Part shown: positions 4,839-48,322 of the stretch, in pieces
Numbering within the stretch: the stretch's first letter is position 1
Layout: every line of letters starts with the position of its first letter
Origin: an uncultured Lachnospiraceae bacterium
Lineage (GTDB): Bacteria > Bacillota > Clostridia > Lachnospirales > Lachnospiraceae
Assembly (NCBI GenBank): GCA_946538525.1
Contig: CAMNGU010000003.1
Coordinates: 1 to 53,066, forward strand
Direction: 5' to 3'
Length of the DNA stretch: 53,066 bases
Translations under genes and position numbers: made by a program
The notes under the pieces: model-generated
The model's database searches: none
The model's input: only the letters and a program-made list of their open reading frames with translations
Told to the model about the DNA's origin: nothing

Positions 4839-4889
4839 AATTCTAAAATTTTGCATATTTGTTTGTAAAGTTTATATTTGATGTAATTA

Positions 4890-4925
4890 GGTTGTACTTG
4901 TTTGAGGAGCAGGTACAACCTTTTT
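4890..4925 (+). terminator. Rho-independent terminator after DJ-1-like gene
   Basis: GGTTGTACTTG (4890-4900) pairs with CAGGTACAACC (4910-4920), followed by TTTTTG. It separates the DJ-1-like gene from the pilus operon. Confidence 0.85.
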
Positions 4926-4981: not shown

Positions 4982-5003
4982 AAATTGACAATTTTGTCAA
5001 TTT
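4982..5003. promoter_or_regulatory. Perfect 22-bp palindrome upstream of pilus promoter
   Basis: AAATTGACAA (4982-4991), two T bases, then TTGTCAATTT (4994-5003): a perfect 10-bp inverted repeat ending 15 bases before the -35 box. It has no T-tract, so it looks like a binding site for a dimeric regulator and not a terminator. The position fits an activator or an upstream operator. No regulator gene is adjacent. Confidence 0.6.
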
Positions 5004-5018
5004 CTGGTGCTCTATTAG

Positions 5019-5048
5019 TTGACATAATTTTTAACACAGTAGTATAAT
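5019..5048 (+). promoter_or_regulatory. Sigma-A-type promoter of the pilus operon
   Basis: TTGACA at 5019-5024 and TATAAT at 5043-5048, both perfect consensus, with an 18-base spacer. Predicted start near 5055, about 36 bases before the first gene. Confidence 0.85.
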
Positions 5049-5090
5049 ATTATATTTGTATAGGTGTCTTTAGTTATAAGGAGTTATATT

Positions 5091-5675
5091 TTGAAAGAAA
5101 AAACAGAAAATATAGAAAAGGCAGAAGATTCAGCTGATAAGATTAGAAAATCTGAAAAAACTAAAGATTCAAATAAAACTAAAAAAAAGAGAACAGCTGT
5201 CTCTTTTATGATTGAGTTTTTTGTAAAGGTTGGATTAACTGCTCTTGTAGTATTCTTGCTCTGTTTTTTTGTAGTTGGAGTATATGTGAATCATAACACT
5301 TCTTCTTATCCAATGGTTAAGGATGGAGATTTATGTATAACTTACAAGCTGGGAGCTTTAAGAGAAGGTGAAGCCATAGCATATATTAATAATGGCAAAG
5401 TTTTCTTTGGAAGAATAGTTGGAATGCCAGGGGACACTGTGGATATATCAGAGGACACTATTACAGTAAATGGATATGGTGTATATGAGAATACCGTTTA
5501 TCCAACAACAGCTGAAGGTGCTGCAATCTCATTTCCTTATGTAGTACCGTCGGATAGCTATTTTATTTTAAATGATTATCGAGATGATATAAATGATAGT
5601 CGTATATTTGGTGCAGTGAGAAAAGATGACACCAAAGGTAAAATCGTTTTATTGCTCCGGAGAAGGGGTATATAA
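5091..5675 (+). CDS. SipA-like signal peptidase I homologue lacking the catalytic lysine
   Basis: A 194-residue S26-family protein: a charged lysine-rich N-terminus (1-35), one membrane segment (about 44-66) and an extracellular signal-peptidase fold. Box B is SSYPMVKDGD, with Ser71 where the catalytic serine belongs. Box D is GRIVGMPGD (107-115); the residue before Arg should be the general-base Lys but is Gly107. Box E is NDYRDDINDSRIFG. Streptococcal SipA, a pilus-assembly factor, also has Gly at the Lys position (and Asp for Ser), so a non-proteolytic chaperone role in pilus assembly is likely. I start at TTG 5091 behind ATAAGGAG (5076-5083). It is the first gene of the pilus operon. The paralogue at 47822 keeps both residues. 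Confidence 0.85.
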   Translation: MKEKTENIEKAEDSADKIRKSEKTKDSNKTKKKRTAVSFMIEFFVKVGLTALVVFLLCFFVVGVYVNHNTSSYPMVKDGDLCITYKLGALREGEAIAYINNGKVFFGRIVGMPGDTVDISEDTITVNGYGVYENTVYPTTAEGAAISFPYVVPSDSYFILNDYRDDINDSRIFGAVRKDDTKGKIVLLLRRRGI

Positions 5676-5727
5676 ATAAATTCATTTTTTAACATTTAAA
5701 TTTTTTTACTATGGAGGTAAGAAAAAA

Positions 5728-7011
5728 ATGAAAGCAAAAAAGAAACTAATTGCGCTTATTACTGTCATGCTTATGGTAATAATGACAGTAATGCCAGTCA
5801 GCGCAGCGTCTACTTATGGTGATGGAGTAGCGGCGCAGAATGTTGAATTTAACAAGATACTAATAGTTAAACAGGGCGATGATATACCCGATGTTTCTTT
5901 TGATTATACGGTATCTGTTCCATCAGCTAAAATTGATGCGGTGCCAGATGTTACACTTGAAGTGCTTCCTGGCGTGGGAACACCAACAGTAGGTACTGTT
6001 ACATATTCAAAAACTGCAGATACAAAAGATGCAACTTCTAAGGTAACAGGTTATGACACAATTACAAAAACAGTAACAGTAGATTTTACAGGTATTAAAT
6101 TCAATGAACCTGGAGTTTATAGATATTATATCCAGGAAAAAGATGATCAGGTGCCAGGTGTTGTTTATGATGTTGATGCAACATCAATAACAACTCAGGG
6201 AGATAGATATCGTACACTTGATGTATATGTTGAGGATGATACAACAACAAGTCTTGGACTTAAGATAACTGGATATGTAATGTATGACGGCCAGGTAGCA
6301 GATGCACCAGCAGTTCCAGGAACAACTGAGACTGCAGCAAGTGGTGCAGCAATCACAAGTACGGTAACAGTGACAGACCTAAAGGGAGATTCACAGGGAG
6401 CGAGCAGGATTACAGGTGCTACTAAAACAGATAATATCATGAACTATTTTGATGCATATAATGTCACAATCAGTAAGACTGTTGAAGGAAATCAGGGTTC
6501 AAAGGATAAGTATTTTGAATTTACATTTGAAGTAAACGGACTTTCAGCTGGAACAAAATATATTGTTGATATTTCAAATGCAGAAGCTAATCCTACTGCA
6601 ACACCTGCAACTACTGTTACAGTGGCTGCAAATCCGACTACAGTAACAGCAGATGCTTCAGGTGCTATATCACAGAAGTTTTATCTTCAGCATGGTCAGA
6701 GCATAATAATTCGAGGTCTTGCAAGAGATACAAAATATACAGTTTCAGAGAATAAAGAGGATTATAAAGCATCGATAGTAGCAACAGAAGATGTAGTTGA
6801 TAATAGTGTAACTATTGCTAATACTGGTGATAGTGCAACAGATTCACATATTGTAGGAAATACAACATTAGCCTTCACAAATACTCGTGATGGTATCATC
6901 CCAACAGGTATTCTTTTATCTGCAACACCATGGATCATTGTTGGTGTAGTTGTAATTGCAGGATTATCATTCTTCGCAATCCGTTCACGCAGAAAATATG
7001 ATGAGGAATAA
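5728..7011 (+). CDS. Pilus backbone subunit (FctA-like, IPTG sorting signal)
   Basis: A 427-residue secreted pilin. It has a signal peptide (about 1-26, ending VSAAS), an N-terminal FctA-type pilin domain (about 30-175; FNKILIVKQ, PGVYRYYIQEK, YRTLDVYVED) and a second domain (about 245-385) opening ISKTVEGNQGSKDKYFEFTF and closing LAFTNTRDG. The Lys, Glu and Asn in these motifs match those that form intramolecular isopeptide bonds in FctA/Cna_B folds. The C-terminus is a cell-wall sorting signal: IPTG (391-394), a hydrophobic span and RSRRKYDEE. It has the strongest ribosome site of the operon (GGAGGT, 5712-5717), as expected for the most abundant subunit. The sortase gene follows within 7 bases. 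Confidence 0.88.
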   Translation: MKAKKKLIALITVMLMVIMTVMPVSAASTYGDGVAAQNVEFNKILIVKQGDDIPDVSFDYTVSVPSAKIDAVPDVTLEVLPGVGTPTVGTVTYSKTADTKDATSKVTGYDTITKTVTVDFTGIKFNEPGVYRYYIQEKDDQVPGVVYDVDATSITTQGDRYRTLDVYVEDDTTTSLGLKITGYVMYDGQVADAPAVPGTTETAASGAAITSTVTVTDLKGDSQGASRITGATKTDNIMNYFDAYNVTISKTVEGNQGSKDKYFEFTFEVNGLSAGTKYIVDISNAEANPTATPATTVTVAANPTTVTADASGAISQKFYLQHGQSIIIRGLARDTKYTVSENKEDYKASIVATEDVVDNSVTIANTGDSATDSHIVGNTTLAFTNTRDGIIPTGILLSATPWIIVGVVVIAGLSFFAIRSRRKYDEE

Positions 7012-7017
7012 TATATA

Positions 7018-7722
7018 TTGAGAAAATTTTGGATATATATGAATATTCTCTACGAGAAATTTATGTTTCTCGTATTTATAGTGGCATTGCTCATAGTTAT
7101 ATATGGGCTTTATGACACTTGGTTTGTATATAACAAAGCTAAAGATGATAGTTATCTTAAGTACAAGCCTACCGCGTCTCAAGGTGTGCCTGAAAATGCG
7201 CCTTTGACCGAGGATTATGTGGCATGGATAACTATTGATGATACAAATATTGATTACCCTATTATGCAGGGTGATAACAATATGCAGTATTTAAATATCA
7301 ATCCTTACGGAGAATATTCTCTGTCTGGGAGTATTTTCCTAGATAGTAGAAATAGCGCGGACTTTTCGGATGATTATTCTATACTCTATGGTCATCACAT
7401 GGAGTATGGAAAAATGTTTGGTGCCTTAGATGATTTTCTAAGTAAGGAATATTTAAAGAATCACAGTACGGGAAAACTGATAGTAGGACGAGACGGCAGT
7501 CAAGTATATGACTTAGGTATCTTTGCTTGTATGAAGGTAAATGTATATGACAAGAAAGCTTTAGATCCAGATTCGCTGGGGAATGTAATGAAACTGATTA
7601 CTGAAGAAGCTACTAATATCAATACCTCCATAGATAAAAGCGAGTCTATACTTGTGCTTTCAACATGCATTGAGCCAGTGTCTACGAATAGGCTGCTGGT
7701 GTTCTGCTATGTATATGAATAA
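7018..7722 (+). CDS. srtB: Class B sortase (pilus polymerising)
   Basis: A 234-residue class B sortase. It has an N-terminal membrane anchor (about 14-36), the TIDDTNIDYPIMQGDNN entry strand typical of SrtB, the histidine motif YGHHM (126-127), catalytic LSTC with Cys217 and Arg225 in TNRLLVF. Start TTG 7018 uses GAGGA inside the end of the pilin gene; the next ATG (7039) has no ribosome site. Class B enzymes serve as the pilus polymerase in streptococcal FCT loci, and its position between the two pilins argues for the same job: joining IPTG-bearing subunits by isopeptide bonds. There is no housekeeping sortase in the window. Confidence 0.93.
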   Translation: MRKFWIYMNILYEKFMFLVFIVALLIVIYGLYDTWFVYNKAKDDSYLKYKPTASQGVPENAPLTEDYVAWITIDDTNIDYPIMQGDNNMQYLNINPYGEYSLSGSIFLDSRNSADFSDDYSILYGHHMEYGKMFGALDDFLSKEYLKNHSTGKLIVGRDGSQVYDLGIFACMKVNVYDKKALDPDSLGNVMKLITEEATNINTSIDKSESILVLSTCIEPVSTNRLLVFCYVYE

Positions 7723-7751
7723 AAAAATTACCAATAAAATGGATTCGCCAT

Positions 7752-8498
7752 ATGAATATATATAAAAATAAAAAGACATATATTCAATTTTATAATGGTT
7801 CTTTTAGAAGAAGCTCAGCCAGAGGAAGATTTAATAGTAGACTAGTAAGTAGACTTTTAATAGTCTTCCTTATGGTGATGGGCTTTTTGTGCTCTTTTGC
7901 AGGTGGTTTTTCGGCAAATGCAGCATTTCAGTATAAGCCTGTAGAGGCACATATTTCATTTGATTGTAAGAAAACAGATGGTGTGGAGGCAGCTTCCTAT
8001 CAGATTAGTATTAAATCAGAAACAGAATCTGCACCAATTCCAGAGAAAGATGTAGTAACAGTTGATAGTTCGGGAAAGGGAGAATTTGTAGTAAAAATTA
8101 CGGAGCCTGGAAACTACAAATATCTTTTATATCAGATTAAGGGCTCCAATAAAAATATTAAGTATGACGAAACAAAATATGATGTTCATGTAAATGTGGT
8201 ATCCAGCGAAAATGGAGAACTTACTTATTCGGTTTCAGTAACATTTGCAGATACAGATGATAAACCGGAAAGTGTTAATTTTCAGAATGTATCAGTGGGC
8301 TCAGAAAGATCAACAGAAGCCCCTCCTGCTAAAATAGATGTGCCTGATAATACAGTTCCAACTGATAAGAAGCAGGCAAAGATAACAACTGGCGATGAAG
8401 CAAAGATAGTACTTGCTGTAATTATTGCAGTATTTGCATTTGCTGGTGTTATTACGATTATTAAAAGTAAGAAAGAATTAACCGGGGAGAGTAATTAG
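7752..8498 (+). CDS. Minor/basal pilin (FctB-like) with TTGD sorting signal
   Basis: A 248-residue surface protein. A long basic leader (1-33) precedes a hydrophobic signal segment and a likely cleavage after SANA (about 57). One FctA/FctB-type pilin domain follows (EPGNYKYLLYQIKGS, YDVHVNVVSS). A threonine/proline-rich stretch leads to TTGD (212-215), a membrane segment and IKSKKELTGESN. The signal differs from the IPTG of its neighbours, as FctB differs from FctA in streptococci, where the basal pilin is attached by another sortase. No Shine-Dalgarno is visible before ATG 7752, 29 bases after the sortase stop, so translation may be coupled or weak. The real start is therefore less sure than the gene. 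Confidence 0.78.
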   Translation: MNIYKNKKTYIQFYNGSFRRSSARGRFNSRLVSRLLIVFLMVMGFLCSFAGGFSANAAFQYKPVEAHISFDCKKTDGVEAASYQISIKSETESAPIPEKDVVTVDSSGKGEFVVKITEPGNYKYLLYQIKGSNKNIKYDETKYDVHVNVVSSENGELTYSVSVTFADTDDKPESVNFQNVSVGSERSTEAPPAKIDVPDNTVPTDKKQAKITTGDEAKIVLAVIIAVFAFAGVITIIKSKKELTGESN

Positions 8499-8502
8499 AA
8501 CA

Positions 8503-11500
8503 TTGAAAAATACGCTTAAAAATAGAATAGTAAGCGGATTTATGGTACTTGTACTCATCATCTCTACAGTTATGCCTGGAGTTATGGCATTTGAAGAAGA
8601 GGATTTTGAGTCTTCTTTGTATGAAGTAATGTCTGAAGCTACAGAGACTGCAGAGGTTAAGGTACTAAGTTCTTCTGATGACTCCCAGGTTGAAGTGGCA
8701 ACAGACTCTGATGCGGAGATAGAAGCAGAAGAAGGACTCGAGATATTAGAAAACTATACAATCAGCGAAAGAGAAGAATCTTCAGATGAGACACTATATG
8801 TAAAGGTGGAACAGGATGAAGATATATCTCTTCAGCCGGAAGAAAGCTTAGCTCTCTATAGCGTTGAAGATGACAAGATCGAGGATGTGATCATTGAGGA
8901 TATATCTGAAGAGGAAGAGCCTTGCGAGATAGATGAGGAATTAATAGGTCTTGCACTAGTTAAGGATTCTGGATATCGTCATCTGAACTTTGATTTAGAT
9001 TCTGTAACTCTTGACGGAATGATGCCAAAGGATGCAAAGGCCGAGACGAAGGATGTTACGGAACAGTTTAGTACGATAGATGAGGCTAGTGAGACAGAGG
9101 CTGAAGAGTCAATTATTGGTGAGGCTACATTATTAGATGCTTCAGCAACCGATGCCGATGGAATTTCATCAGAAGGCGAAGTGATCGCAGCTTATGATAT
9201 TACTATTATGGATGGAGAAACGGAGTATCAGCCATCAGAATATCGACCAATAGAAGTATCTATTACAGATTCTCAGATTAAAATGGGGACTAATCTTCAT
9301 ATTTATCATATTAAGGATAATGGAGAGCAGGAAGAAATTACAGACTTTACCGTAGAAGATGGTAAGGTTACTTTTAGTGCGGTGGGATTCAGTATATATA
9401 AGCTGGTGAAGAAAGATGAGTTTTCTGGCAACTCAGAAGGTTGGAGAAAGATTACCTCTCTTGACCAGCTGGATAATTTTGGGGAAGGCAGTGATGGTTT
9501 ATACATAAGCCATATTAATGGATATTATTTTAAAGACTCAACATACATTGTTAAAGATAGTAGAAAAGGAATTTTGAAAACGGATTCCTATGATAACACA
9601 GATGTGGCTTTATCCAGAGGAGCGGTTCCATATTATTTTGAGAAGAGTGGAAATGGCTACTATATTTATTGTAAGGATGGTGAAACTAAAAAGTACATTA
9701 AACAAAGTGGCAATAGTCTAGATTTAGTTGAAACAAAGAGCGATGCAAGAGTTTTTACAATTTCTAAGTTTAATACAAATTCCACAGATGTATTTAAGGC
9801 GCTAGGAAGCGATGGATATTATTTGAATATGCAGGGTGGAACTGGTGGTAAAGGTTTTGCTGCACATAATGTCGCTAATGATGTTAACGCCCAATTAAAT
9901 TTTTGGTATTACAAATATGAAGAAATAGAAGAAGATGATCCATATAAGCTGAATGATAAAACCTATGGAATTATGAATTATACAGGTGGTACCCATGGTT
10001 ATGCATTAATGGGTGAAAGTAATTCTGTCCACTCTTTGGTTCAGCTTGTAACCAGACAGATTAATTCCAGTGATGGTCAAACACTTTTTGTTGATGAAGG
10101 TAGTGAAGTAACCAGATGGACTTTCCATAATACAAGTAAGGATAATTATACCCTTTCTGCTGAGATTGATGGTACAACAAAGTATCTTGCAGTAAACGGC
10201 ACTAATCTTACCCTTGTTGATTTACCTGCGGAAGCAACAAGTTTTAGAGTTGTTCCAAATGAGAATAAGGAATTTCAGCTTAAGGTAGGTACGGATTATG
10301 TATCTTTTCATTCAGAAGAAGTAGGAAATAGTACAAATAATTCTTTTATTCTTTCGAATACTCCAAATAATAAAACATATTTATCATTGGTTGATTTTGC
10401 TGAACTATCTGAAGAAGAAATGATTACATATTCAGCAGATAGAATTAGTGTGTCCGATATTAAGGATGGTCAGAAAGTTATTGTTTATACCCGACTTTGG
10501 GATGAAGTAAATAAAAGATATGATATTTATGCAATTGATTATAATGGAACACTTTATCCTTGCTATGCCAGTGGAGGTAAGATTCTTTGGTTAGGAGATG
10601 GAACCTGTTCTCTTGAATGGGAATTCACTGAATATCTTGATGAGATAACCAAAGAGCCAAACTATTATTACGAGCTTTATAACCCATATTCTGAGAAATA
10701 TATTGCGCCTCAGTTGAATGGTGATCAGGTCCTTTCGGAGGATCCAATAGGTATAAATCTGCAGGGAAGAAGATATGGGGAATTTTATAGTAATATTATT
10801 GCTTGGGATAATAACCGTTATGCCTATATTGGAATGAAGGCTGTAGATATTTATGGTTCAGATGGAAAAAAGAAGTTGGTTCCATGTTCAGAGTCTGCAT
10901 CTATTCCATTTTATTTTGCTACTCTTGAAGAACTTAATTTAGGTGATAGATTACATGAGGTTTCAACAGTCGACAATAATGACTATGGAATCTCCATGAA
11001 GATGTTTGATTTTAATGGAAGTGCAACTGATTTACCTAATTCTGATGTAACAAAAAATTATTTTAAAGGGCAAACTGGTGAAGCGCAGAATTTATTATAT
11101 ACAAATCTTGAATATAATGAAGAGGATTCAAATGATAAGGGTTATCCAAGAGTTAGAAGCACTGACAAATCCTTCAGGGATATGTATGCGGGCGCAACAG
11201 ATGTAAATCATCTGTTCATTGAAAGTATATATAATTCCAGTGGTTATTTTGAATTTGATAGTTGTCAGAATTTTGCTACATTGCAGGAAAAAGGTAACGG
11301 CGATTTTACTGTATATCGTGAACTGGGAACAACGAATGCAAGTGGAAAGAACACATTAAAACATGGACAGTTCTTCCCTTATAACAAAATTAAGGTGGGC
11401 GAATATTCTACATCTAACCCTGAAAACCTATATAGTATGGAAGCTTTACTAGATGGTAAAGATTCAGGTAAACTTGATGAAAATGATCCAAGAAAATATG

Positions 11501-14500
11501 AAAAATTACACTTGATAAGTAATCCTGATTACTTTTTTGGTATGGAAATGAGTGCAAGTTTTGTTCAGACTGTTAATGGTCTGGATTCCTGGGGACATGA
11601 TATTATCTTCGAGTTTACAGGTGATGATGATTTCTGGTTATATGTTGACGGTGAACTTATTATAGATTTAGGCGGAATACACAGTGCAGAAGGTGGAAGC
11701 GTAAATTTCCGTACAGGTGAAGTAATACTTAGTAGGGTTATTGATGACAATAAAAAGCGAATTGAAGAAAGAACAACATTAGTTGATATATTTAGAAAGA
11801 ATTATAAAGACAGAGGAATGTCTGATTCTGATATTGAGAAGAAAATAAAAGAGGTTTTTGATCAAAATGAAGATGGTCAGTACATATTTAGGGATTATTC
11901 ATCTCATACCATGCGAGTATTCTATATGGAAAGAGGAGCTGGAGCATCCAACCTTCATATGAAATTCAATCTGGCAGCGGTTACACCAGGAAATGTTGTT
12001 GTTTCCAAGAAAGTAACTGGAGATGGAGCAGAAAGTCTTGATAAAGACTTTCTGGAGTATCCTTTCCAGATTTATTACATAACTGAAGATCATCCGGGAC
12101 AAGAACAGCTACTGGGAAATGATAATGAAAATATTATGGTTTCATATCAGAATTCCAATCAGCCTGTAAGATATGCGCAAACCTATAAACCGCCGGGGCT
12201 CAGTGAGAGTGAAGCATTATCTAATGTATACTTTATAAATCCAACGAAAAACGCTGAGATTTCATTTCCGGATAAGACAATTAATTATAGAATTGTAGAA
12301 TGTGCCGTTGATACAAGAGTTTATAATGTATTAATTAATGGAGAACCTGTTCCACAAGAGCAACAGACTGCTCTTGGTACTAATGGAAACTTGATAAGTT
12401 ATTCTTCTGTTCTTGATTCAGCAGAGAATAAACCTACACTTTCATTTGATAATAATGTAAACTCCGATGTTGTTAGAGATCTTAGAATCAAGAAGATATT
12501 GACAGATGAAAACGGAAATGAAATTACAAATGATCCGGCAACATTTAGTTTTAGACTTAGACTTTCTTCTGTAGATGTGGGTGATGGTGAGATTCCTTTG
12601 GCGGATATGTATAATTATTATGTTTTGTCGCCAAACAATAAGATTTGCCGTTATCAGTCGGGAGGTTTTGTTGAAACAAATCTTGATTATACATTGGAAA
12701 ATATCAATGCAGTAAAGAATAATGAAAATCCTGATTATGGAGTAGATGATATTACATTTAAAACTTCCAGTTTTGGTGCCATTTCAAATATTCCAGCAGG
12801 ATATACTATTTGTGTTCCTGGTTTACCAGCGGGTACAGTGTTTAATGTTACAGAAGATATAAAGACTGGTTATGGACTTATTGGTTATCAGATGGAAGAA
12901 GGTTACCTCGTAAATTCTGAAGGTGAAACAATTAAGATAGCTTCCTATGAGAAAATAAATAGTACGGATAAAGATAATACGGGAAGAATCCTTCAGGGAG
13001 TTGATGCTTCTCTTATAGTGGAAAATAGAAAAGGATATGGATATACAGTAAAAAAGAATTGGAGTGATCTAGATATAACCACAGCTCATTCTTCGATTTA
13101 TGTTGCGGTCTATGTGGATGGTGAGTTTCTTGATGGTTCTGTAAGAAAGATAGAATCTCCAAAAACTTCTGCGTATTACTTCTGGTCTGCACTTGTTCCA
13201 AAGGATGATGGAACTCCTCGAACAGATTTTGATGATTATGAGGTGAAGGAAGTTGAATTAACAGGTAATCCAACTGTTGCAGAGGATGGAACAGTAACTG
13301 GTTATACTTCAATTACACCTTTAGAAGAAGGTGATGAGATTACTCTGACAGCAACTAGAACAGAAGCTGCAACTCCAGCGGGAGAGACTAGAGATAAGGA
13401 TTATGAGTATGTTGTTTCTTATGATAAGGGAACAACAGAAGGTTCTATATGTACAGATACAATAACTAATACCCGAAAGGGCGGAATAGCAGTAAGATTA
13501 TATAAATGGGAAACCGAAAATCCATTAAAGGGTGGTAAATTTACTATTACCGATAGTAATGGAAATAAGGTAGGAACCTTTACTTCTGATGCCTCAGGAT
13601 TAGTCACCATGATGTATAGTTTTGATAGAAATCAGCTATATACTCTTACTGAAGTTGGCGCACCAAGTGGCTATGTAGGTTTGGATAAGTCACTGAAATT
13701 TAAGGTGAATGATGATGATTCAGTTTCTCTATTCTATAATGATGGAACAACAGAATGGGGAGATAATGATGTTAAAGATAGAAAATGGGCGAATTATAAG
13801 CCTGGAGAAAATGGTATCGTTGCTTATGTAGATGTATATAATAAACCATTTAATTTTAAGATCATGAAGATGGATAGTCTGGATTCTGAGGAATTACTTA
13901 CGGGAGCACATTTTGCTCTTTATAAGCAGGCAAAAACTACCATCAGTGGTTATGTTAAGAATAAGGATCCAATGACAGGCTTCGAAGATTTAGTAACCGT
14001 TAACGGTGAAGTAGAAGTATGTGGTGAACAATCTGGAAGAGTAATCCGACTGGGAGATACGGATTCGGTTTATTTCCTTACAGAAACACAGGCTCCTCCT
14101 AATTATGCTAAGATGGATAAAGATATTATGTTTAAGATATCTCCATCCGGCAGACCGTCATTAATTGAAAATGAATATAGTGGACAGCTTGTTGAAACGG
14201 ATGATAGTTTTATATATACTCTTAGTGTACCAAACATAGAAGAAAGTGATGATATTAAAGTACTGTCGATCACGAAAAATGTTTCTGGAAATATGGGAGA
14301 TAAGACAAAAGATTTTGAGTTTACTTTCGTTGTTCCAGAAGGAGATAGTAATACAGAATATGATTGGTATGTGAATGGTATTTTACAAACAGATAAGATT
14401 AAGAGTAATGAAAAATTTAGTCTTAGTCATGGTGAAAATGTTATAATAATGGTTCCGGCAGGAACTAAGGTTACAATATCTGAGAATAGTGAAAATTACA

Positions 14501-14736
14501 CTTCAAGCTTTATACTCGATACAGAGACGGAAGCTGAAAAAACAAATAGCAAGACATTCACTGTTACAGATTCTACTTATCTTACAGTAACAAATACTTT
14601 GGAGGCGATTATTCCAACGGGTATCTGGAATGCAACAAAAATTATGATCATTTCAGGGCTATGCTTGATTATTATCCTCATAACAATGATAATAAGAAGC
14701 AGAAGGCTGAAGAAGTACGCTAGTGAGGATGAGTAA
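8503..14736 (+). CDS. Giant pilus-associated adhesin, fibro-slime and Cna_B domains, IPTG signal
   Basis: A 2077-residue surface protein. It has a signal peptide (about 1-29) and a very acidic stretch (30-225), then a beta domain ending VTFSAVGFSIYKLV (about 230-305). A 500-residue region rich in Tyr, Asn and Gly I cannot assign comes next (310-820). A fibro-slime/PA14-like domain is centred on GDDDFWLYVDGELIIDLGG (Asp1041-1043). Several FctA and Cna_B/SpaA-type isopeptide domains follow (about 1163-1920), then a last module opening LSITKNVSGN (about 1921) and closing VTNTLE, like the backbone pilin's. The C-terminus is IPTG (2037-2040), a hydrophobic span and RSRRLKK. Start TTG 8503 follows GGGGAGAG. 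Sharing the IPTG signal with the backbone suggests a pilus tip or shaft adhesin, like Cpa. No thioester motif was recognised; the ligand is unknown. Confidence 0.85.
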   Translation: MKNTLKNRIVSGFMVLVLIISTVMPGVMAFEEEDFESSLYEVMSEATETAEVKVLSSSDDSQVEVATDSDAEIEAEEGLEILENYTISEREESSDETLYVKVEQDEDISLQPEESLALYSVEDDKIEDVIIEDISEEEEPCEIDEELIGLALVKDSGYRHLNFDLDSVTLDGMMPKDAKAETKDVTEQFSTIDEASETEAEESIIGEATLLDASATDADGISSEGEVIAAYDITIMDGETEYQPSEYRPIEVSITDSQIKMGTNLHIYHIKDNGEQEEITDFTVEDGKVTFSAVGFSIYKLVKKDEFSGNSEGWRKITSLDQLDNFGEGSDGLYISHINGYYFKDSTYIVKDSRKGILKTDSYDNTDVALSRGAVPYYFEKSGNGYYIYCKDGETKKYIKQSGNSLDLVETKSDARVFTISKFNTNSTDVFKALGSDGYYLNMQGGTGGKGFAAHNVANDVNAQLNFWYYKYEEIEEDDPYKLNDKTYGIMNYTGGTHGYALMGESNSVHSLVQLVTRQINSSDGQTLFVDEGSEVTRWTFHNTSKDNYTLSAEIDGTTKYLAVNGTNLTLVDLPAEATSFRVVPNENKEFQLKVGTDYVSFHSEEVGNSTNNSFILSNTPNNKTYLSLVDFAELSEEEMITYSADRISVSDIKDGQKVIVYTRLWDEVNKRYDIYAIDYNGTLYPCYASGGKILWLGDGTCSLEWEFTEYLDEITKEPNYYYELYNPYSEKYIAPQLNGDQVLSEDPIGINLQGRRYGEFYSNIIAWDNNRYAYIGMKAVDIYGSDGKKKLVPCSESASIPFYFATLEELNLGDRLHEVSTVDNNDYGISMKMFDFNGSATDLPNSDVTKNYFKGQTGEAQNLLYTNLEYNEEDSNDKGYPRVRSTDKSFRDMYAGATDVNHLFIESIYNSSGYFEFDSCQNFATLQEKGNGDFTVYRELGTTNASGKNTLKHGQFFPYNKIKVGEYSTSNPENLYSMEALLDGKDSGKLDENDPRKYEKLHLISNPDYFFGMEMSASFVQTVNGLDSWGHDIIFEFTGDDDFWLYVDGELIIDLGGIHSAEGGSVNFRTGEVILSRVIDDNKKRIEERTTLVDIFRKNYKDRGMSDSDIEKKIKEVFDQNEDGQYIFRDYSSHTMRVFYMERGAGASNLHMKFNLAAVTPGNVVVSKKVTGDGAESLDKDFLEYPFQIYYITEDHPGQEQLLGNDNENIMVSYQNSNQPVRYAQTYKPPGLSESEALSNVYFINPTKNAEISFPDKTINYRIVECAVDTRVYNVLINGEPVPQEQQTALGTNGNLISYSSVLDSAENKPTLSFDNNVNSDVVRDLRIKKILTDENGNEITNDPATFSFRLRLSSVDVGDGEIPLADMYNYYVLSPNNKICRYQSGGFVETNLDYTLENINAVKNNENPDYGVDDITFKTSSFGAISNIPAGYTICVPGLPAGTVFNVTEDIKTGYGLIGYQMEEGYLVNSEGETIKIASYEKINSTDKDNTGRILQGVDASLIVENRKGYGYTVKKNWSDLDITTAHSSIYVAVYVDGEFLDGSVRKIESPKTSAYYFWSALVPKDDGTPRTDFDDYEVKEVELTGNPTVAEDGTVTGYTSITPLEEGDEITLTATRTEAATPAGETRDKDYEYVVSYDKGTTEGSICTDTITNTRKGGIAVRLYKWETENPLKGGKFTITDSNGNKVGTFTSDASGLVTMMYSFDRNQLYTLTEVGAPSGYVGLDKSLKFKVNDDDSVSLFYNDGTTEWGDNDVKDRKWANYKPGENGIVAYVDVYNKPFNFKIMKMDSLDSEELLTGAHFALYKQAKTTISGYVKNKDPMTGFEDLVTVNGEVEVCGEQSGRVIRLGDTDSVYFLTETQAPPNYAKMDKDIMFKISPSGRPSLIENEYSGQLVETDDSFIYTLSVPNIEESDDIKVLSITKNVSGNMGDKTKDFEFTFVVPEGDSNTEYDWYVNGILQTDKIKSNEKFSLSHGENVIIMVPAGTKVTISENSENYTSSFILDTETEAEKTNSKTFTVTDSTYLTVTNTLEAIIPTGIWNATKIMIISGLCLIIILITMIIRSRRLKKYASEDE

Positions 14737-40740: not shown

Positions 40741-40823
40741 ATGTATACGGGTTATTAGCTTTATTTGGGGAAATATAGCAGATGAAGAATCACTTGTTTT
40801 TTTGGTGGTTTGGAGGGGTGCCT

Positions 40824-43800
40824 ATGAAAAAAAGAATACATAAATTTGTATCACTAGTACTGACCGGGGTAATGGTACTAGCATGTCCAGTTTTGCCGAA
40901 TAGTTCTAACTATGTTCAGGCGGCAGATGTTCCAGCAACAGATAATCAAATAATAGATGTTAGAGATAATATCCCTGATAATGCAACTCAGCCAACTATT
41001 GTTATTGGTGTTGAGGGAGTAAATAAAACAAATAATATGCAGATACTTCTTGATAAGGTCAATCAAGTAAGATGGGAGGCTTGCACGGCTGGAAATGTTC
41101 CAGATCCAAGAAACACATCAAGATGTTTGACTGAGGATGATTATGTTCCTTTGAAGATAGGAGTAAATTGCAATAAGGCAGCAACTATTAGAGCGGCTGA
41201 AGCCTCAATCAGGTTGGATCATACAAGACCAAATGGAACAGGAGCAACCAGTGTTTTGTCATATTTTGGTAGTACTGGTCTTTTGGGAGAAAATCTGGCA
41301 TGGACAGGTGATACCGTTTCACGAAAAACTGAAGATGGTCAGGGATATATATCATATACTTGTTTTGATAGTGAAGCAAATGAGATAAATGGATGGATTG
41401 AAGAAAAACAGAATTGGATAGACTATGCAACAGATGAAAATAGTCTTCCAGCTGGAGAGCAAATGGGACATTATAAAAGTCTTATAAATCCTAAGTATAA
41501 TTATACGGGTATGGCTTCCTTTAATCCAAACAACGATAATCTTCGTTGGAATTGGACATGTACGGCTGGAGCATATGCAACATCAGATACTCCAATTGGT
41601 GCACTTCCTGCTGCGCAGAATGCTACTTACATTCAGAAGATACCTGTGCTTGTTTCTTCAGTTCAAAATTTGGATATAGTTGGAGAATCAGTATTACATA
41701 CAAATGATGAAGTTGATTATGATTTATTAGTAGCGGTTTATTTTACTGGAGCAGCAGCCAATACTACAGTGGATTGTCCAGTGTATGAAGGGGCAACATG
41801 GTCAAGTTCTGATAATGATAAGCTTTCGATTGACGAAGATGGAAAAGCTACTGTTAAGTCAACGGGTATGGTTACATTAACTGCTACGATAGGAACTGGG
41901 GCAAGTAAAAAGACTATTTCAAGAGACATTTTAATTGTACCAGAGGGTGTTGAAGTAGTTAGTGTAGAAAACCCAGCTATGGTAACGGTGGAAACCAACA
42001 AAACACCAGTGCTTAGTAAAACAGTAGTTGCAAGATTAAGTGATAATAGTACTGTAAATGTTGATGCAAAATGGGATAGCTATGATACTTCGAAATTATT
42101 AACTCATTTTAAGAGTACAGAGTTTGATGTAACAGGAACTGCGGCTGGAATGCAAGTTGTTCAAAAGGTTCATGTAAATGCCGCTAAAATTCTTGGAACA
42201 ACACCTTTATATAGTGAAATAGTAAATGGAAAAATAACTATTACACATCAATTTGCTGAAGATGAATTTATTACTACTGATTCCGGTACCAATATTAAAT
42301 ATCCGCAAGCAGGAATTGATCTTTCAAATGGTTATATGCATTATGCATATACGGTAACTTGGGATGATGAAAGTAAAACTTATTATATGAGCAGAAAGGG
42401 TGGAGATTTTACTCTTACTGGTACTGTTAGTGTAACTACGGATAATGGAGTGGAAAAAATACCTGTATCACAAAAGCTGCATGTTAATCCGGCAACAGTA
42501 ACAAGCGTTCAGATGCCAACAAACTATACTGTAATTGAAACAGAAAGTGGTACAGCACCTACATACCCAACAGCAACCGTTACCTGGTCAAATGGTGATG
42601 TTGATCAGGATGATATTACTTGGGCAGATGCAGATCCTTCAAATGAGTATACCAGTCTTAACGATAGTGCTAGAAAGTATATGATGAAGGATGGTGGAAC
42701 CTACGATCTTACTGGTACATATAGTGGAAGAACAACAACCATAACAGTTAAGGTTAATCCTGCTACAGTTACGAGTGCAGTTATAGAAAAGCCAAATGTT
42801 GAAACAAAATGTGGTACAGAACCGGTGCTTCCAAGTACGGCGAAAGTAACCTGGTCAAATGGTGATAAAACAGATGAAGATATTGTTTGGGAAGAACTTG
42901 ATCCTAAAGATTATAACAAGATAGAAGGAAATAGTTATACTGTTTCTGGTACTTGCGCAGGAAAATCTGTAACAGCTAATATTACTGTTCTTCCTGCAAC
43001 GATTAAGAGTATTGACTCCATGTCACTTATAACATCAGAAAGAGTTGATCCTACTCCTAATCTTCCAGCAAATGCTACGGTTAACTGGAGCAATGATACA
43101 AGTAGTGAAGTACCTGTTACATGGGAATCTATAGAAGCGTCTAAATATGCAGCGCCAGGTACATTCCAGGCTGTTGGAGAAATTACTGATATGTACGGTA
43201 AAAAAGTTACAGTTACCTGCGACATAGTAGTTCATGAGAGGACTTTGACATCGATAGCTCTTGAGAATGGTGAGCTGGAGAATAATACATCTGTATATAA
43301 ATATGAACTTTCAGATATTAAAGGTGCTATCATTGCAACATATGATAATGGCGAGACAGAAAAGATAAATATTACCTCTAGTATGATTTCTGGATTTAAT
43401 GCAAACTCTACAAGCAGTAATCAGGAAATTACCATTTCATACACAGAAGGTACGGTAACAAAGACAGTTAATACAACTCTTCATCTGGTAAAGAGAATAG
43501 GAATTGAGATAACAAAACTTCCAACAAAGCTTGAGTATATTGAGGGTGAGGTTGATGAGCTGGATTATTCAGGTATAGAGGTAAAGGAATTTCTTGATAA
43601 TAACGAAGAAAGAATTATTTCAGCAAGCGATTATTCGGTAAGTAATTTCTCTGGATTTAATCCAAATCCGACTACCTATGGAAATCAGATTATTACTCTT
43701 ACACTTTATGGTTTTTCAGACGATTTTACGGTAAGTGTTAAAAAGAAGACTCTTAAGTCTATATCACTTTCCGGACCAACAAAGAAAACCTATGTTCAGG

Positions 43801-46460
43801 GACAGGAGTTTAGTATAGCTGGACTTAAGGTATATGGAACATATGATAATGGAAAGCCGGCAGAAGAACTTCCTTTAAGTGATGCAATAATCAAAATGAA
43901 TCCTGTTCTAGTTGATGATCCACTTCGTGCAAGTCTTGGAGAAGATGTAAATACTAATACTGTGGGTAAAATTACAGTTTATGTATTTTATCCTTGTGAA
44001 GCAGAAGAGGGTGATAACGGGCAGGTTACTACCACATATCTCTTTAGTACATTTGATATTGAAGTAATTGAAAAGGAAATAGATTCTATTGAGATTAAGA
44101 CTTCACCTTCAAAGCAGACCTTCCCACAGAATGATATTTCCTATAAGGATTATAAGTTCTCAGATGGCGCACTTCTTGTAAAATATAATGATAATGAAAG
44201 TACAGAGGTTAGCTTCAGTGATGCAGAGATATCTGGATTTGATATATCAAAGCTGGGCGAGCAGGAAGTAACAGTTTCATTTGGTGGAAAAACAGTTACA
44301 TTTAACGCGACGGTTGAAGCTCCAACACTTACGAAGACCTATGTTACTCCACCTACAGCAACTGGTTATGCCGAGGGCGAATATCTGAATTTAGCAGGAA
44401 CTAAGATTAATCTTCTTTATAACAATGGTCTGGTAACAGAGATTGGTCTTCAGGAGGCGCTTTTAGCTGGTGATGCTGCAGTTTCATTTGCAGATGAAAG
44501 CAGCACAACTGCACCACTTGAGAGAAATAAACAGCTGGTGATCACATATAAGGGCACCGCGCTTAAGGATATTAACGGAAATGATATTAATATCAGTGTT
44601 AGTAAGAGAATTGGTATCAGAGTTTCAAGCAATCCAACAAAGACAAGTTATATTGAGGGACAGGCGCTTAATATTTCCGGACTTAAGCTGGAGTCAGTTT
44701 TTGCAAATGGTAAGACTTCAGAAATTCCTTCAAGCGATTATTCAGTAAGCGATGTAATTGGTTTTGATAATTCATCCATCGGTAATCAAACACTTACAAT
44801 TAATGTTTACGGATTTAGTACAACATTTAATGTATCTGTTAGAAAGAAGAGAATGGTATCTCTTGAGATAACATCTCTTCCTACAAAGACTTCATATGCA
44901 GCTGGTCAGCCGCTTGATATCAGTGGAATGTCAGTAAAGGCATTTTACGATAATAATACTGCAGAGGTGCTAGGTGCAAGTAATGATGGAGAAACACCTA
45001 TTACTCTCGCAAATATTCGCATGAATGTGGGAAGTAGTGGAAATGGAGATGCGTGGAGCACAACAACGGTTGGCGATTCTGTTACATACTATGTGACATA
45101 TAAGGAAGACTACGAAGGTGCACCATATATTAAGGAGCCATTTAGTCTTAAGATTGAGCCTAAGGTGGTTCAGTCATTGAAAGTAGAGACAGTACCAACG
45201 GATGTTGAATATATTCAGAATTCTACAGCTTATAATGCAGGAACCGCATTTGGCACGGGTGTTTTGAAGGTTACAAATAATTGTGGCTTCGTGGAATATG
45301 TTGGTTTCCGAGATGCTGGAGTTGCGATTTCAGGATTTGATATTGGCGCTGTGGGTGAGCAGACAGTAACAGTAACATATGGTGGAAGAAGTACAACATT
45401 TACTGTAAATGTTATTGAACCAACTATGATAAGTAAGACGGTTACTCCGCCGACAAAGACAAACTATACAGAAGGTGAGGCAGTTAGCCTTGAGGGAGCG
45501 GCTGTTGTAAAGACTTATGATAATGGTCGCAGCGAAACAATCTATCTTTCTCAGGATGCAGCAGTACTTGAGAATGAGAAAATTAAGATTTGTTTTGTGG
45601 ATAACGCTGGAAATGAATATTCAGTGGGTGACCCAAGTGTTACAACTACAACCGGAGCTAAGACATTGGTAGTTAAGTATATGACTAGTGCTGATGGAGA
45701 GCCGGAGCAGTGGGAAGAACTGAAAATGCCAGGCGGAGCAGCAGTTTCTGTAAATGTGCAGAAGAAGCAGAAGTCTAATCCATCAGGTGGAAACGGTTCG
45801 GGAAGTGGCTCAGGTAGTGGTTCAGGTTCAGGCAGTGGTTCAGGTTCTGGAAATGGATCTGGCAGTGGTTCAGGAAGTGGTTCAGGTAATGGTTCTGGTA
45901 CTGCAAAGAAGAATACACTTGTGACCTCAGCTAAAGGAATTCAGTATATTAAGGCAGATGGAAGCTATGCTAAGAGTGAGTGGGTTACTATTAAGGGAAC
46001 CAAATATTACTTTAATGCTGACTCTTATAACGCAAGTAATGAATGGCGTGATGGAAAGTGGATAAGTGCAGATGGTTCATGTACATATTCTGGACAGCTT
46101 ATCTGGAAGAGTAATTCTACCGGATGGTGGGTTGAAGATACAGTTGGCTGGTATCCACAGAGTAGTTGGCAGAAGATTGATGGTGTATGGTACTACTTCA
46201 ATTCATCAGGATATATGGCATCAGGTGAATGGTACGATGGCTATTGGTTCAATAGTGATGGTTCCTGGGATTCAACCTATAAACTTACCTGGAAGAGTAA
46301 TTCCTCAGGTTGGTGGATAGAAGATATTTCTGGATGGTGGCCATCAAGCAGCTGGCAGAAGATAGATGGCAGTTGGTATTACTTCGATGGTTCAGGTTAC
46401 ATGGTATCTAATCAGTATATTGATGGTTACTGGATTGGTTCTGATGGAGTATGCAATTAG
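40824..46460 (+). CDS. Giant secreted protein: CAP domain, Ig-like repeats, wall-binding repeats
   Basis: An 1878-residue protein. Signal peptide 1-35. A CAP/SCP domain (about 55-265) has His133 (LDHTRPNG), Glu156 (GENLAW) and GHYKSLINPKY, the usual cavity residues. One Big_2-like domain follows (TWSSSDNDKLSIDEDGKATV), then several group-4-like Ig domains sharing NPATVTSV and VTWSNGD phrases. Next come repeated group-3-like Ig domains (KTSYIEGQALNISGLKLESV) and a roughly 40-residue Gly/Ser linker. Two to three aromatic wall-binding units matching those at 36066 and 37211 end the protein. The start is ATG 40824 behind GGAGGG (40812-40817). There is no sorting signal. The Ig domains probably act as a stalk holding the CAP domain away from the wall. 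Confidence 0.85.
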   Translation: MKKRIHKFVSLVLTGVMVLACPVLPNSSNYVQAADVPATDNQIIDVRDNIPDNATQPTIVIGVEGVNKTNNMQILLDKVNQVRWEACTAGNVPDPRNTSRCLTEDDYVPLKIGVNCNKAATIRAAEASIRLDHTRPNGTGATSVLSYFGSTGLLGENLAWTGDTVSRKTEDGQGYISYTCFDSEANEINGWIEEKQNWIDYATDENSLPAGEQMGHYKSLINPKYNYTGMASFNPNNDNLRWNWTCTAGAYATSDTPIGALPAAQNATYIQKIPVLVSSVQNLDIVGESVLHTNDEVDYDLLVAVYFTGAAANTTVDCPVYEGATWSSSDNDKLSIDEDGKATVKSTGMVTLTATIGTGASKKTISRDILIVPEGVEVVSVENPAMVTVETNKTPVLSKTVVARLSDNSTVNVDAKWDSYDTSKLLTHFKSTEFDVTGTAAGMQVVQKVHVNAAKILGTTPLYSEIVNGKITITHQFAEDEFITTDSGTNIKYPQAGIDLSNGYMHYAYTVTWDDESKTYYMSRKGGDFTLTGTVSVTTDNGVEKIPVSQKLHVNPATVTSVQMPTNYTVIETESGTAPTYPTATVTWSNGDVDQDDITWADADPSNEYTSLNDSARKYMMKDGGTYDLTGTYSGRTTTITVKVNPATVTSAVIEKPNVETKCGTEPVLPSTAKVTWSNGDKTDEDIVWEELDPKDYNKIEGNSYTVSGTCAGKSVTANITVLPATIKSIDSMSLITSERVDPTPNLPANATVNWSNDTSSEVPVTWESIEASKYAAPGTFQAVGEITDMYGKKVTVTCDIVVHERTLTSIALENGELENNTSVYKYELSDIKGAIIATYDNGETEKINITSSMISGFNANSTSSNQEITISYTEGTVTKTVNTTLHLVKRIGIEITKLPTKLEYIEGEVDELDYSGIEVKEFLDNNEERIISASDYSVSNFSGFNPNPTTYGNQIITLTLYGFSDDFTVSVKKKTLKSISLSGPTKKTYVQGQEFSIAGLKVYGTYDNGKPAEELPLSDAIIKMNPVLVDDPLRASLGEDVNTNTVGKITVYVFYPCEAEEGDNGQVTTTYLFSTFDIEVIEKEIDSIEIKTSPSKQTFPQNDISYKDYKFSDGALLVKYNDNESTEVSFSDAEISGFDISKLGEQEVTVSFGGKTVTFNATVEAPTLTKTYVTPPTATGYAEGEYLNLAGTKINLLYNNGLVTEIGLQEALLAGDAAVSFADESSTTAPLERNKQLVITYKGTALKDINGNDINISVSKRIGIRVSSNPTKTSYIEGQALNISGLKLESVFANGKTSEIPSSDYSVSDVIGFDNSSIGNQTLTINVYGFSTTFNVSVRKKRMVSLEITSLPTKTSYAAGQPLDISGMSVKAFYDNNTAEVLGASNDGETPITLANIRMNVGSSGNGDAWSTTTVGDSVTYYVTYKEDYEGAPYIKEPFSLKIEPKVVQSLKVETVPTDVEYIQNSTAYNAGTAFGTGVLKVTNNCGFVEYVGFRDAGVAISGFDIGAVGEQTVTVTYGGRSTTFTVNVIEPTMISKTVTPPTKTNYTEGEAVSLEGAAVVKTYDNGRSETIYLSQDAAVLENEKIKICFVDNAGNEYSVGDPSVTTTTGAKTLVVKYMTSADGEPEQWEELKMPGGAAVSVNVQKKQKSNPSGGNGSGSGSGSGSGSGSGSGSGNGSGSGSGSGSGNGSGTAKKNTLVTSAKGIQYIKADGSYAKSEWVTIKGTKYYFNADSYNASNEWRDGKWISADGSCTYSGQLIWKSNSTGWWVEDTVGWYPQSSWQKIDGVWYYFNSSGYMASGEWYDGYWFNSDGSWDSTYKLTWKSNSSGWWIEDISGWWPSSSWQKIDGSWYYFDGSGYMVSNQYIDGYWIGSDGVCN
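45786..45901 (+). repeat. Coding Gly-Ser repeat linker
   Basis: Reiterated GGTTCAGGCAGT-like hexamers encode an almost pure (Gly-Ser) stretch of about 38 residues with occasional Asn. It lies between the Ig-like stalk and the wall-binding repeats. Confidence 0.9.
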
Positions 46461-47766: not shown

Positions 47767-47821
47767 AGAAAATAAATAGAAAATGTTATGATAGTACTCT
47801 GTAATAGAGGTGGAAAAAATA

Positions 47822-48322
47822 ATGAAAATAGTTAAGAAGAGAATAATTAGAAATATTCCTTATGTGTTGGCATTTGTTGTAACAGTAATTGTTTTATCGA
47901 ACTTTATATCCTGGGCAAAAAAGAAGGATTATATTTATAAAATTACTGGAAAATCTATGTACCCTACTATTCAAGGCCATGGCTTTTGTTTCGTGGATCA
48001 TAACTTTACGGAAATCAAAAGGGGTGACATTGTGATAGTAGATAAGGAGTCAGAGCCTAAGTATCTTATCAAAAGGGTGACGGGTGTACCAGGAGACCAT
48101 ATTAAGTTCTCTTATGGGGATTATTATCTAAATGATGAGAAGAACCCAGATGTATATTCTGAGGGCGTACCATATTCTTTCGGTCCTCATTCTGAATATT
48201 ATATCGAAGATGATATGTACTTTGTTATGGGAGATAATAGAATCGTTTCTTATGACAGTAGAGCTTTCGGTCCTGTCAGAAAGGACGAGATACTTGGTAA
48301 GGTGGTCTTCTTTATTGACTGA
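47822..48322 (+). CDS. lepB: Signal peptidase I
   Basis: A 166-residue type I signal peptidase. It has a basic N-terminus, one membrane segment (about 13-30), box B GKSMYPTIQG with catalytic Ser45, box D LIKRVTGVPGD with catalytic Lys84, and box E GDNRIVSYDSRAFGPV. All active-site residues are intact, unlike the pilus-linked homologue at 5091. I start at ATG 47822, about 9 bases after GAGGTG (47807-47812), not at GTG 47810. It would process Sec-exported proteins such as those encoded here. Confidence 0.93.
   Translation: MKIVKKRIIRNIPYVLAFVVTVIVLSNFISWAKKKDYIYKITGKSMYPTIQGHGFCFVDHNFTEIKRGDIVIVDKESEPKYLIKRVTGVPGDHIKFSYGDYYLNDEKNPDVYSEGVPYSFGPHSEYYIEDDMYFVMGDNRIVSYDSRAFGPVRKDEILGKVVFFID

Follow-up and report, generated by a model that had tools for sequence, protein, structure and literature searches.

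Relation to described class B sortase pili

In the FCT-2, FCT-3 and FCT-4 pilus loci of Streptococcus pyogenes (group A Streptococcus, GAS), which carry cpa, sipA, fctA, srtC and fctB, the adhesin gene stands first and is followed by sipA–fctA–srt–fctB (PMC4049620). Pilus polymerization in GAS requires SipA, which has Asp and Gly at the dyad positions and no detectable peptidase activity (PMC4049620); why class B sortase pili need SipA is, according to work on GAS, an unanswered question (PMC7900414). The NE pilus of Clostridium perfringens VR-10B has, by its description, the same five kinds of part (CnaA, FimA, FimB, a signal peptidase and a class B sortase), and both pili and a ladder have been demonstrated (PMC8088525); an operon of the FCT type has thus been described in a Clostridium before. 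We compared these systems with an operon in a 53,066-nucleotide stretch of DNA (the window) of contig CAMNGU010000003.1 from an uncultured Lachnospiraceae bacterium (assembly GCA_946538525.1). This operon very probably encodes a SipA-dependent pilus of the streptococcal FCT-2/3/4 type, assembled by a class B sortase and bearing a lectin-like tip. Its five open reading frames (ORFs; lengths in amino acids, aa) are the following.

5091..5675, + strand: sipA-like gene, TTG start, 194 aa, signal-peptidase-like (profile and solved-protein matches)
5728..7011, + strand: fctA-like backbone pilin, 427 aa (profile, alignment, model)
7018..7722, + strand: class B pilus sortase, TTG start, 234 aa (profile, alignment)
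7752..8498, + strand: fctB-like base pilin, 248 aa (profile, alignment)
8503..14736, + strand: tip adhesin gene, TTG start, 2077 aa, last in the operon (ORF, profiles)

All five lie on the + strand between 5091 and 14736, with intergenic gaps of 52, 6, 29 and 4 nt, in agreement with an earlier note on this DNA that had described five near-abutting genes on one strand. That note also recognized the FCT parts list and called the machine homologous to the streptococcal one. Both statements are supported: sipA–fctA–srt–fctB stand in the GAS order (PMC4049620), and the best solved relative of each of the four machine proteins (3PSQ and 3klq among them) is its counterpart in a streptococcal SipA/class B sortase pilus. 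Shared with FCT-2/3/4 are a SipA-like pseudo-peptidase, a class B polymerase, a two-domain FctA with the same layout of isopeptide and acceptor sites, and an FctB base pilin with its own signal. The differences are that the adhesin gene comes last in the window and first in GAS, that no thioester domain was detected in the window adhesin, that the base signal is ITTGD rather than LPXTG/LPLAG (PMC7900414), and that anchoring presumably falls to a second class B sortase. The tip of the NE pilus is the collagen-binding CnaA, unlike the head encoded here (PMC8088525); pilus islet 2 of pneumococci and S. oralis (PitA, PitB) gives a weaker match than GAS FctA and has a different tip. Among the titles listed by literature searches (at most 20 each), with most subscription papers outside their reach, none described such a pilus with a class B sortase from a Lachnospiraceae. 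We regard the five-gene set, found here in a relative of rumen bacteria, as complete, real, coherent and functionally readable, and as differing from the kind described in streptococci and one Clostridium in another, possibly sugar-binding, tip protein.

Relatives came from two samples. Sortase matches with an E value of at most 1e-20 occur at 73 places in 63 of the 299 family genomes; one place is that of the window, and the 40 regions fetched cover 41 of the remaining 72. Named genomes, scanned in the same search for relatives, gave 512 loci, of which the best 80 form the named-loci set. The sipA gene lies in the same stretch as the sortase in at least 33 of the 299 family genomes (window counted), on the opposite strand at locus L042. 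The exact order sipA–fctA–srt–fctB–adhesin, with a homologous adhesin, occurs in 30 of the 80 named loci, many others being cut by contig ends.

The assembly proteins

The nearest solved relative of the operon sortase is the pilus polymerase Spy0129 (E 8.4e-34), followed by 4y4q (E 5e-28), and Staphylococcus aureus SrtB matches at E 4.1e-20; it is a class B sortase closest to a known pilus polymerase. His126-His127, Cys217 and Arg225 are invariant, and the motifs Tyr-Gly-His-His-Met and Ser-Thr-Cys occur in all 12 aligned sequences. One other sortase, class B-like at 148.3 bits, was found in the source genome (80% complete), on contig C19. At five loci, class B sortases adjoining sipA carry a C-terminal extension that resembles a membrane segment followed by basic residues (L057:12746-13741, L058:5968-6915, L059:409-1398, L067:5887-6852 and L068:5851-6921); class C pilus sortases have a membrane anchor at the C-terminus (PMC3019223).

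FctA has two Ig-like domains with two predicted Lys–Asn isopeptide sites, the triads K43/E137/N239 and K250/E341/N385, together with the acceptor K233 (codon 6424-6426) and a C-terminal xPTG signal, IPTGI, at 6898-6912. Lys occupies the acceptor position in all 50 sequences compared, and [ILV]PTG[IV] is present in 74 of 78 complete FctA-type ORFs (last-match rule). The backbone model superposes on Spy0128, and the best solved relatives of the small pilin are FctB proteins, in line with the FctA and FctB folds predicted for the two pilins in the earlier note. By Pfam, FctB contains one FctA-type domain. In an alignment of 39 sequences (the window protein and 38 of 70 listed), K171 and N179 are invariant (39/39), and the position of the bond-forming Glu of FctA is occupied by Gln in 22 and Glu in 17. 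The window protein is an FctB-like base pilin with an invariant Lys and a separate signal, ITTGD, at 8382-8396; the signal columns hold T in 38, G in 36, and D in 31 or E in 4. Cys72 of FctB is near-invariant (36/39) and may sit near the site of the bond-forming Lys of FctA, the profile alignment ending short of it.

The claim of shared sorting signals stands for the shaft pilin and the adhesin, which both end in IPTGI (28 or more of the 34 complete adhesin-type ORFs carry xPTG), and fails for the small pilin. KTGD and NTGD are the tail signals of two large surface proteins of the source genome, encoded on contigs C15 and C115, respectively. Since the TG[D/E] signals differ from the PTG of FctA and the adhesin and resemble these tails, the sequences suggest that the base pilin takes a general route and that shaft and tip take a pilus route. 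The base pilin of the C. perfringens NE pilus is reported to carry a sortase-B-type signal, and that genome to have a second srtB (PMC8088525); TIGR03063, the signal reported for that pilin, is matched by 3 of the 39 FctB proteins at E up to 1. The C15 protein (L087:4556-13882, 3108 aa) has eight FctA-type domain matches, one DUF7601 domain and the KTGD tail, and may form a shaft-like rod without assembly; contig C15 yielded no sortase gene. The C115 protein (L088:812-3403, at least 863 aa, reaching the contig end) has three DUF7601 domains before its NTGD tail.

The SipA-like product matches Peptidase_S26 (Pfam); its top solved relative is S. pyogenes SipA (4n31, E 7.5e-19), and true signal peptidases rank behind. 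The nucleophile Ser is retained (codon 5301-5303) and the catalytic Lys is replaced by Gly (codon 5409-5411). We compared 98 SipA-like proteins: that of the window, 34 from 33 of the 40 fetched family regions and one each from 63 of the 80 named loci. None has the catalytic Lys (Gly 84, Arg 5, Ser 4, Ala 3, Asp 1, Gln 1); the adjoining Arg is invariant, and the Ser is present in 58 and missing in 40. Three other signal peptidases of the source genome, two on contig C88 and one at window position 47810, have Ser as well as Lys at the aligned positions. To judge by its residues, the protein appears signal-peptidase-like without a working Ser–Lys dyad. The control at 47810-48322, a second S26 signal peptidase with intact Ser and Lys, lies shortly downstream of 40782-46460, whose product is a surface protein of 1892 aa with repeats of the Big_3/Big_4 and choline-binding types.

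The putative tip adhesin

The adhesin combines a head with stalk domains and a pilin-like C-terminus.

9439..9915, + strand: predicted beta-trefoil 1, residues 313-471 (model)
9943..10401, + strand: predicted beta-trefoil 2, residues 481-633 (model)
10456..10926, + strand: predicted beta-trefoil 3, residues 652-808 (model)
11197..11979, + strand: fibro-slime/PA14-like region, residues 899-1159, with invariant GDDDFW (profiles; PA14 below its cut-off)
13501..13719, + strand: best SpaA prealbumin-like stalk domain, one of two stretches (Pfam)
14263..14598, + strand: DUF7601 domain, the family of the backbone pilin's C-terminal domain (Pfam)
14611..14625, + strand: sorting signal IPTGI, identical to that of the backbone pilin (sequence)

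In the model, the three trefoil stretches of the head adopt the beta-trefoil fold; against PDB sequences the adhesin has no match at E up to 1. The fibro-slime family TIGR02148 scores 46.8 against a cut-off of 45, and all 36 adhesins in the alignment match it with an E value of 0.01 or lower. The Asp-rich GDDDFW stretch would correspond to the Ca/sugar site of PA14 lectins. The three predicted beta-trefoils and the fibro-slime/PA14-like region together probably bind glycans, be they on feed particles, in host mucus or on other cells.

The earlier note had the FCT adhesin gene moved to the end of the operon. Its last position here and first position in GAS agree with this, but the protein is not Cpa-like: no thioester domain is among its Pfam matches at E up to 1, in a single scan that could miss a diverged domain, and the head is of another predicted fold. 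Replacement of the tip therefore fits better than relocation. A domain-level likeness exists to the fibro-slime proteins of Fibrobacter succinogenes, which share only the TIGR02148 family and are outer-membrane or released Gram-negative proteins, not pilus tips. Those proteins are implicated in cellulose adhesion, and an earlier study cited for Fibrobacter had antibodies blocking 62% of adhesion (PMC4668043, PMC3079729). We found no paper joining fibro-slime, sortase and pilin, or beta-trefoil, sortase and pilus tip, again with most subscription papers outside the search.

Proposed assembly and alternative explanations

From the observed parts, order, residues and conservation, and from the modelled folds, we infer polymerization, the pairing of sortases with signals, the role of SipA and the nature of the ligand. 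The operon sortase would cleave IPTGI after Thr and join the Thr to Lys233 of the next FctA. Because the exported adhesin and FctA both carry IPTGI and would be joined onto the Lys233 of the next FctA, the adhesin would come to lie at the tip and FctA would form the shaft, each FctA being locked by two internal Lys–Asn bonds (K43–N239 and K250–N385). FctB would join via Lys171 and end growth; its ITTGD would be taken by the second, general class B sortase (C19), fixing the pilus to the wall. SipA, its cutting of signal peptides presumably lost with the change of Lys to Gly, would act as a non-enzymatic assembly factor.

The class B sortase might instead only attach proteins to the wall one by one, in the manner of S. 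aureus SrtB, with no pilus and with FctA, FctB and the adhesin as separate surface proteins. The solved matches do include wall-anchoring class B sortases (1ng5 and 1rz2), the second-best match 4y4q has no role stated in the passages of PMC3019223 used here, and Spy0129 itself has the loops of anchoring class B sortases and no special mark of a polymerase (PMC3019223). We nevertheless consider single anchoring highly improbable: Spy0129 outranks S. aureus SrtB, the invariant acceptor Lys of FctA would not be needed for anchoring alone, and the operon contains SipA, which GAS needs for polymerization (PMC4049620). That SipA is an active, pilus-dedicated signal peptidase, its Ser working with another base, is highly improbable, given that the Lys is missing throughout the set beside an invariant Arg, that the Ser is itself often lost, and that GAS SipA has no detectable peptidase activity (PMC4049620); in its favour are the retained Ser and a SipA homologue with an apparently intact dyad in S. 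suis and S. agalactiae (PMC4049620). A structural or protein-binding head with fascin-like trefoils is a more serious competitor, which we nonetheless think somewhat doubtful. Human fascin is among the best Foldseek matches, no ricin-type lectin family appears among the Pfam matches at E up to 1, and, of 50 fold matches listed for the trefoil stretches, 13 are designed proteins and 14 are natural proteins without a lectin name. The remainder, 22 lectins or haemagglutinin components and one glycoside hydrolase, argue for glycan binding, as does the adjoining PA14-like region with its invariant GDDDFW.

Several observations weigh against the SipA-dependent pilus with a lectin-like tip. The sortase scores 151.7 bits against TIGR03064, slightly below the curated class B cut-off of 153.75. 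The FctB signal is variable: TG[D/E] lies within the last 75 residues in 54 of 71 complete FctB-type ORFs, and xxTGx is missing in 7. With Ser kept in the window protein and in the majority of the set, the loss of the SipA dyad is only half complete, and a sipA match is missing at 17 of the 80 named loci, 11 with a contig end close upstream and six with at least 3 kb of room. Beta-trefoils also occur in non-lectins such as fascin and fibroblast growth factor (FGF). The fibro-slime domain is found in 57 of 299 family genomes (50 above cut-off), on the contig of a listed sortase place in only four (the source genome, G120, G160 and G297) and away from such contigs in 53, so the domain is not pilus-specific and an argument for fibre binding from the name fibro-slime alone is weakened. 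Co-evolution of the adhesin and pilin C-terminal domains was set aside, similarity within a locus not clearly exceeding that of shuffled pairs (p 0.06, 31 loci); for their membrane tails the similarity exceeds that of shuffled pairs (p 0.004, 31 loci), which kinship of the loci can explain.

The six roomy loci without sipA come from five genomes. In four of these, a strong SipA is encoded at another place (E at most 5.2e-58), and the fifth has a weak match only (4.9e-5). With 98 SipA-like proteins lacking the catalytic Lys in two sampled sets, the lineage offers a natural comparison in which it becomes testable whether SipA is a non-enzymatic assembly factor able to act from another locus. Genome G300 (L142 and L154; L211, L214) has two extra sipA matches with an internal stop beside one intact strong copy, as if pilus loci were being lost.

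Gene order, exchange of the tip and habitat

Tip placement was read with a crude finder, which looked for a large gene that bears a sorting signal or is cut, and some labels are wrong or doubtful, such as that of L094 from a 407-aa gene. A gene of this kind comes after the core at 46 of the 80 named loci and at 8 of the 41 loci of the family set (window counted), stands only before it in 3 and 18, and was not detected in 31 and 15, respectively. Adhesin-last order is common in the named-loci set; adhesin-first order is common in the wider family, as those 18 loci show, and is also that of GAS (PMC4049620). A single origin of the adhesin-last order was not demonstrated: on the sortase tree the state 'fibro-slime tip last' (47 rows) takes 10 changes, against 26.7 in shuffles. 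The tree has 118 rows, 36 of them unlabelled, many of these being on cut contigs; L068, L071 and L072 of the 121 were dropped with E above 1e-30.

Alternative giant tips occupy the slot after fctB, also at L102 and L123. Those of L104, L136 and L151 (three scanned of nine listed; 2.7–3.0 thousand aa) carry DUF285/PARCEL repeats, three SpaA stretches and three DUF7601 stretches. On the sortase tree L100 and L103, with a fibro-slime tip, cluster with L102 and L104, with another tip, at a support of 95 in the Shimodaira–Hasegawa-like approximate likelihood-ratio test (SH-aLRT). Different tips on such closely grouped sortases fit an exchange of the tip.

A ruminant or one of its gut compartments appears in 17 of the titles belonging to the 80 named loci; 27 (16 UBA, 11 SRR) give no host, and none names a human. 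We take a further 31 titles with RUG or RUI names to be of rumen series, and presumably 5 are isolates from rumen. Cultured carriers of the operon include Lachnospiraceae bacterium NE2001 (L096), LC2019 (L092) and AC2029 (L103) and Eubacterium ruminantium FB3002 (L117). Enrichment for ruminant habitats was dropped to this description, no background rate being measurable. The sortase of G160 (L034), a genus-mate of the source genome, is identical to that of L119, a metagenome-assembled genome from goat omasum. Tentatively, and as a reading we ourselves think unlikely, the pilus may be adapted to the rumen, a multivalent carbohydrate-binding tip holding cells on plant fibre or rumen microbes, and a fixed machine exchanging giant adhesins with different heads in its tip slot. 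If so, this would be a sortase pilus serving fibre digestion, not infection, and if the tip binds plant or microbial glycans, covalent pili would join the ways in which rumen bacteria hold feed.

Promoter and neighbouring elements

4889..4921, + strand: terminator-like hairpin, 15-pair stem then T-run, end of the upstream transcription unit (pattern match only)
4985..5000, no strand assigned: 16-bp inverted repeat TTGACAATTTTGTCAA, possible operator, just 5' of the -35 box
5019..5048, + strand: sigma-70-type promoter TTGACA-18-TATAAT, 12/12 match (pattern, shuffle control)
5078..5083, + strand: ribosome-binding site AAGGAG of sipA (sequence)

The single strong promoter noted earlier is confirmed as the sole exact match in the window, where 0.14 are expected and 13 of 100 shuffles contain at least one. 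The same 12/12 site precedes sipA at L090–L095, whose sortases are the six best-matching ones, and occurs in 10 of 62 upstream stretches (window counted) and in 0 of 1240 mononucleotide shuffles; by the rule applied, a site is absent in 8 of the 62. AAGGAG precedes TTG 5091, which is a likelier sipA start than GTG 5064. The inverted repeat, as TTGACAA-2-TTGTCAA, was not found in the upstream stretches of L090–L097. The hairpin at 4889-4921 sets the operon apart from the upstream gene, and the same pattern scan listed none from 14736 to the next gene start at 14772. At the window start, positions 1-79 hold a truncated tRNA gene.

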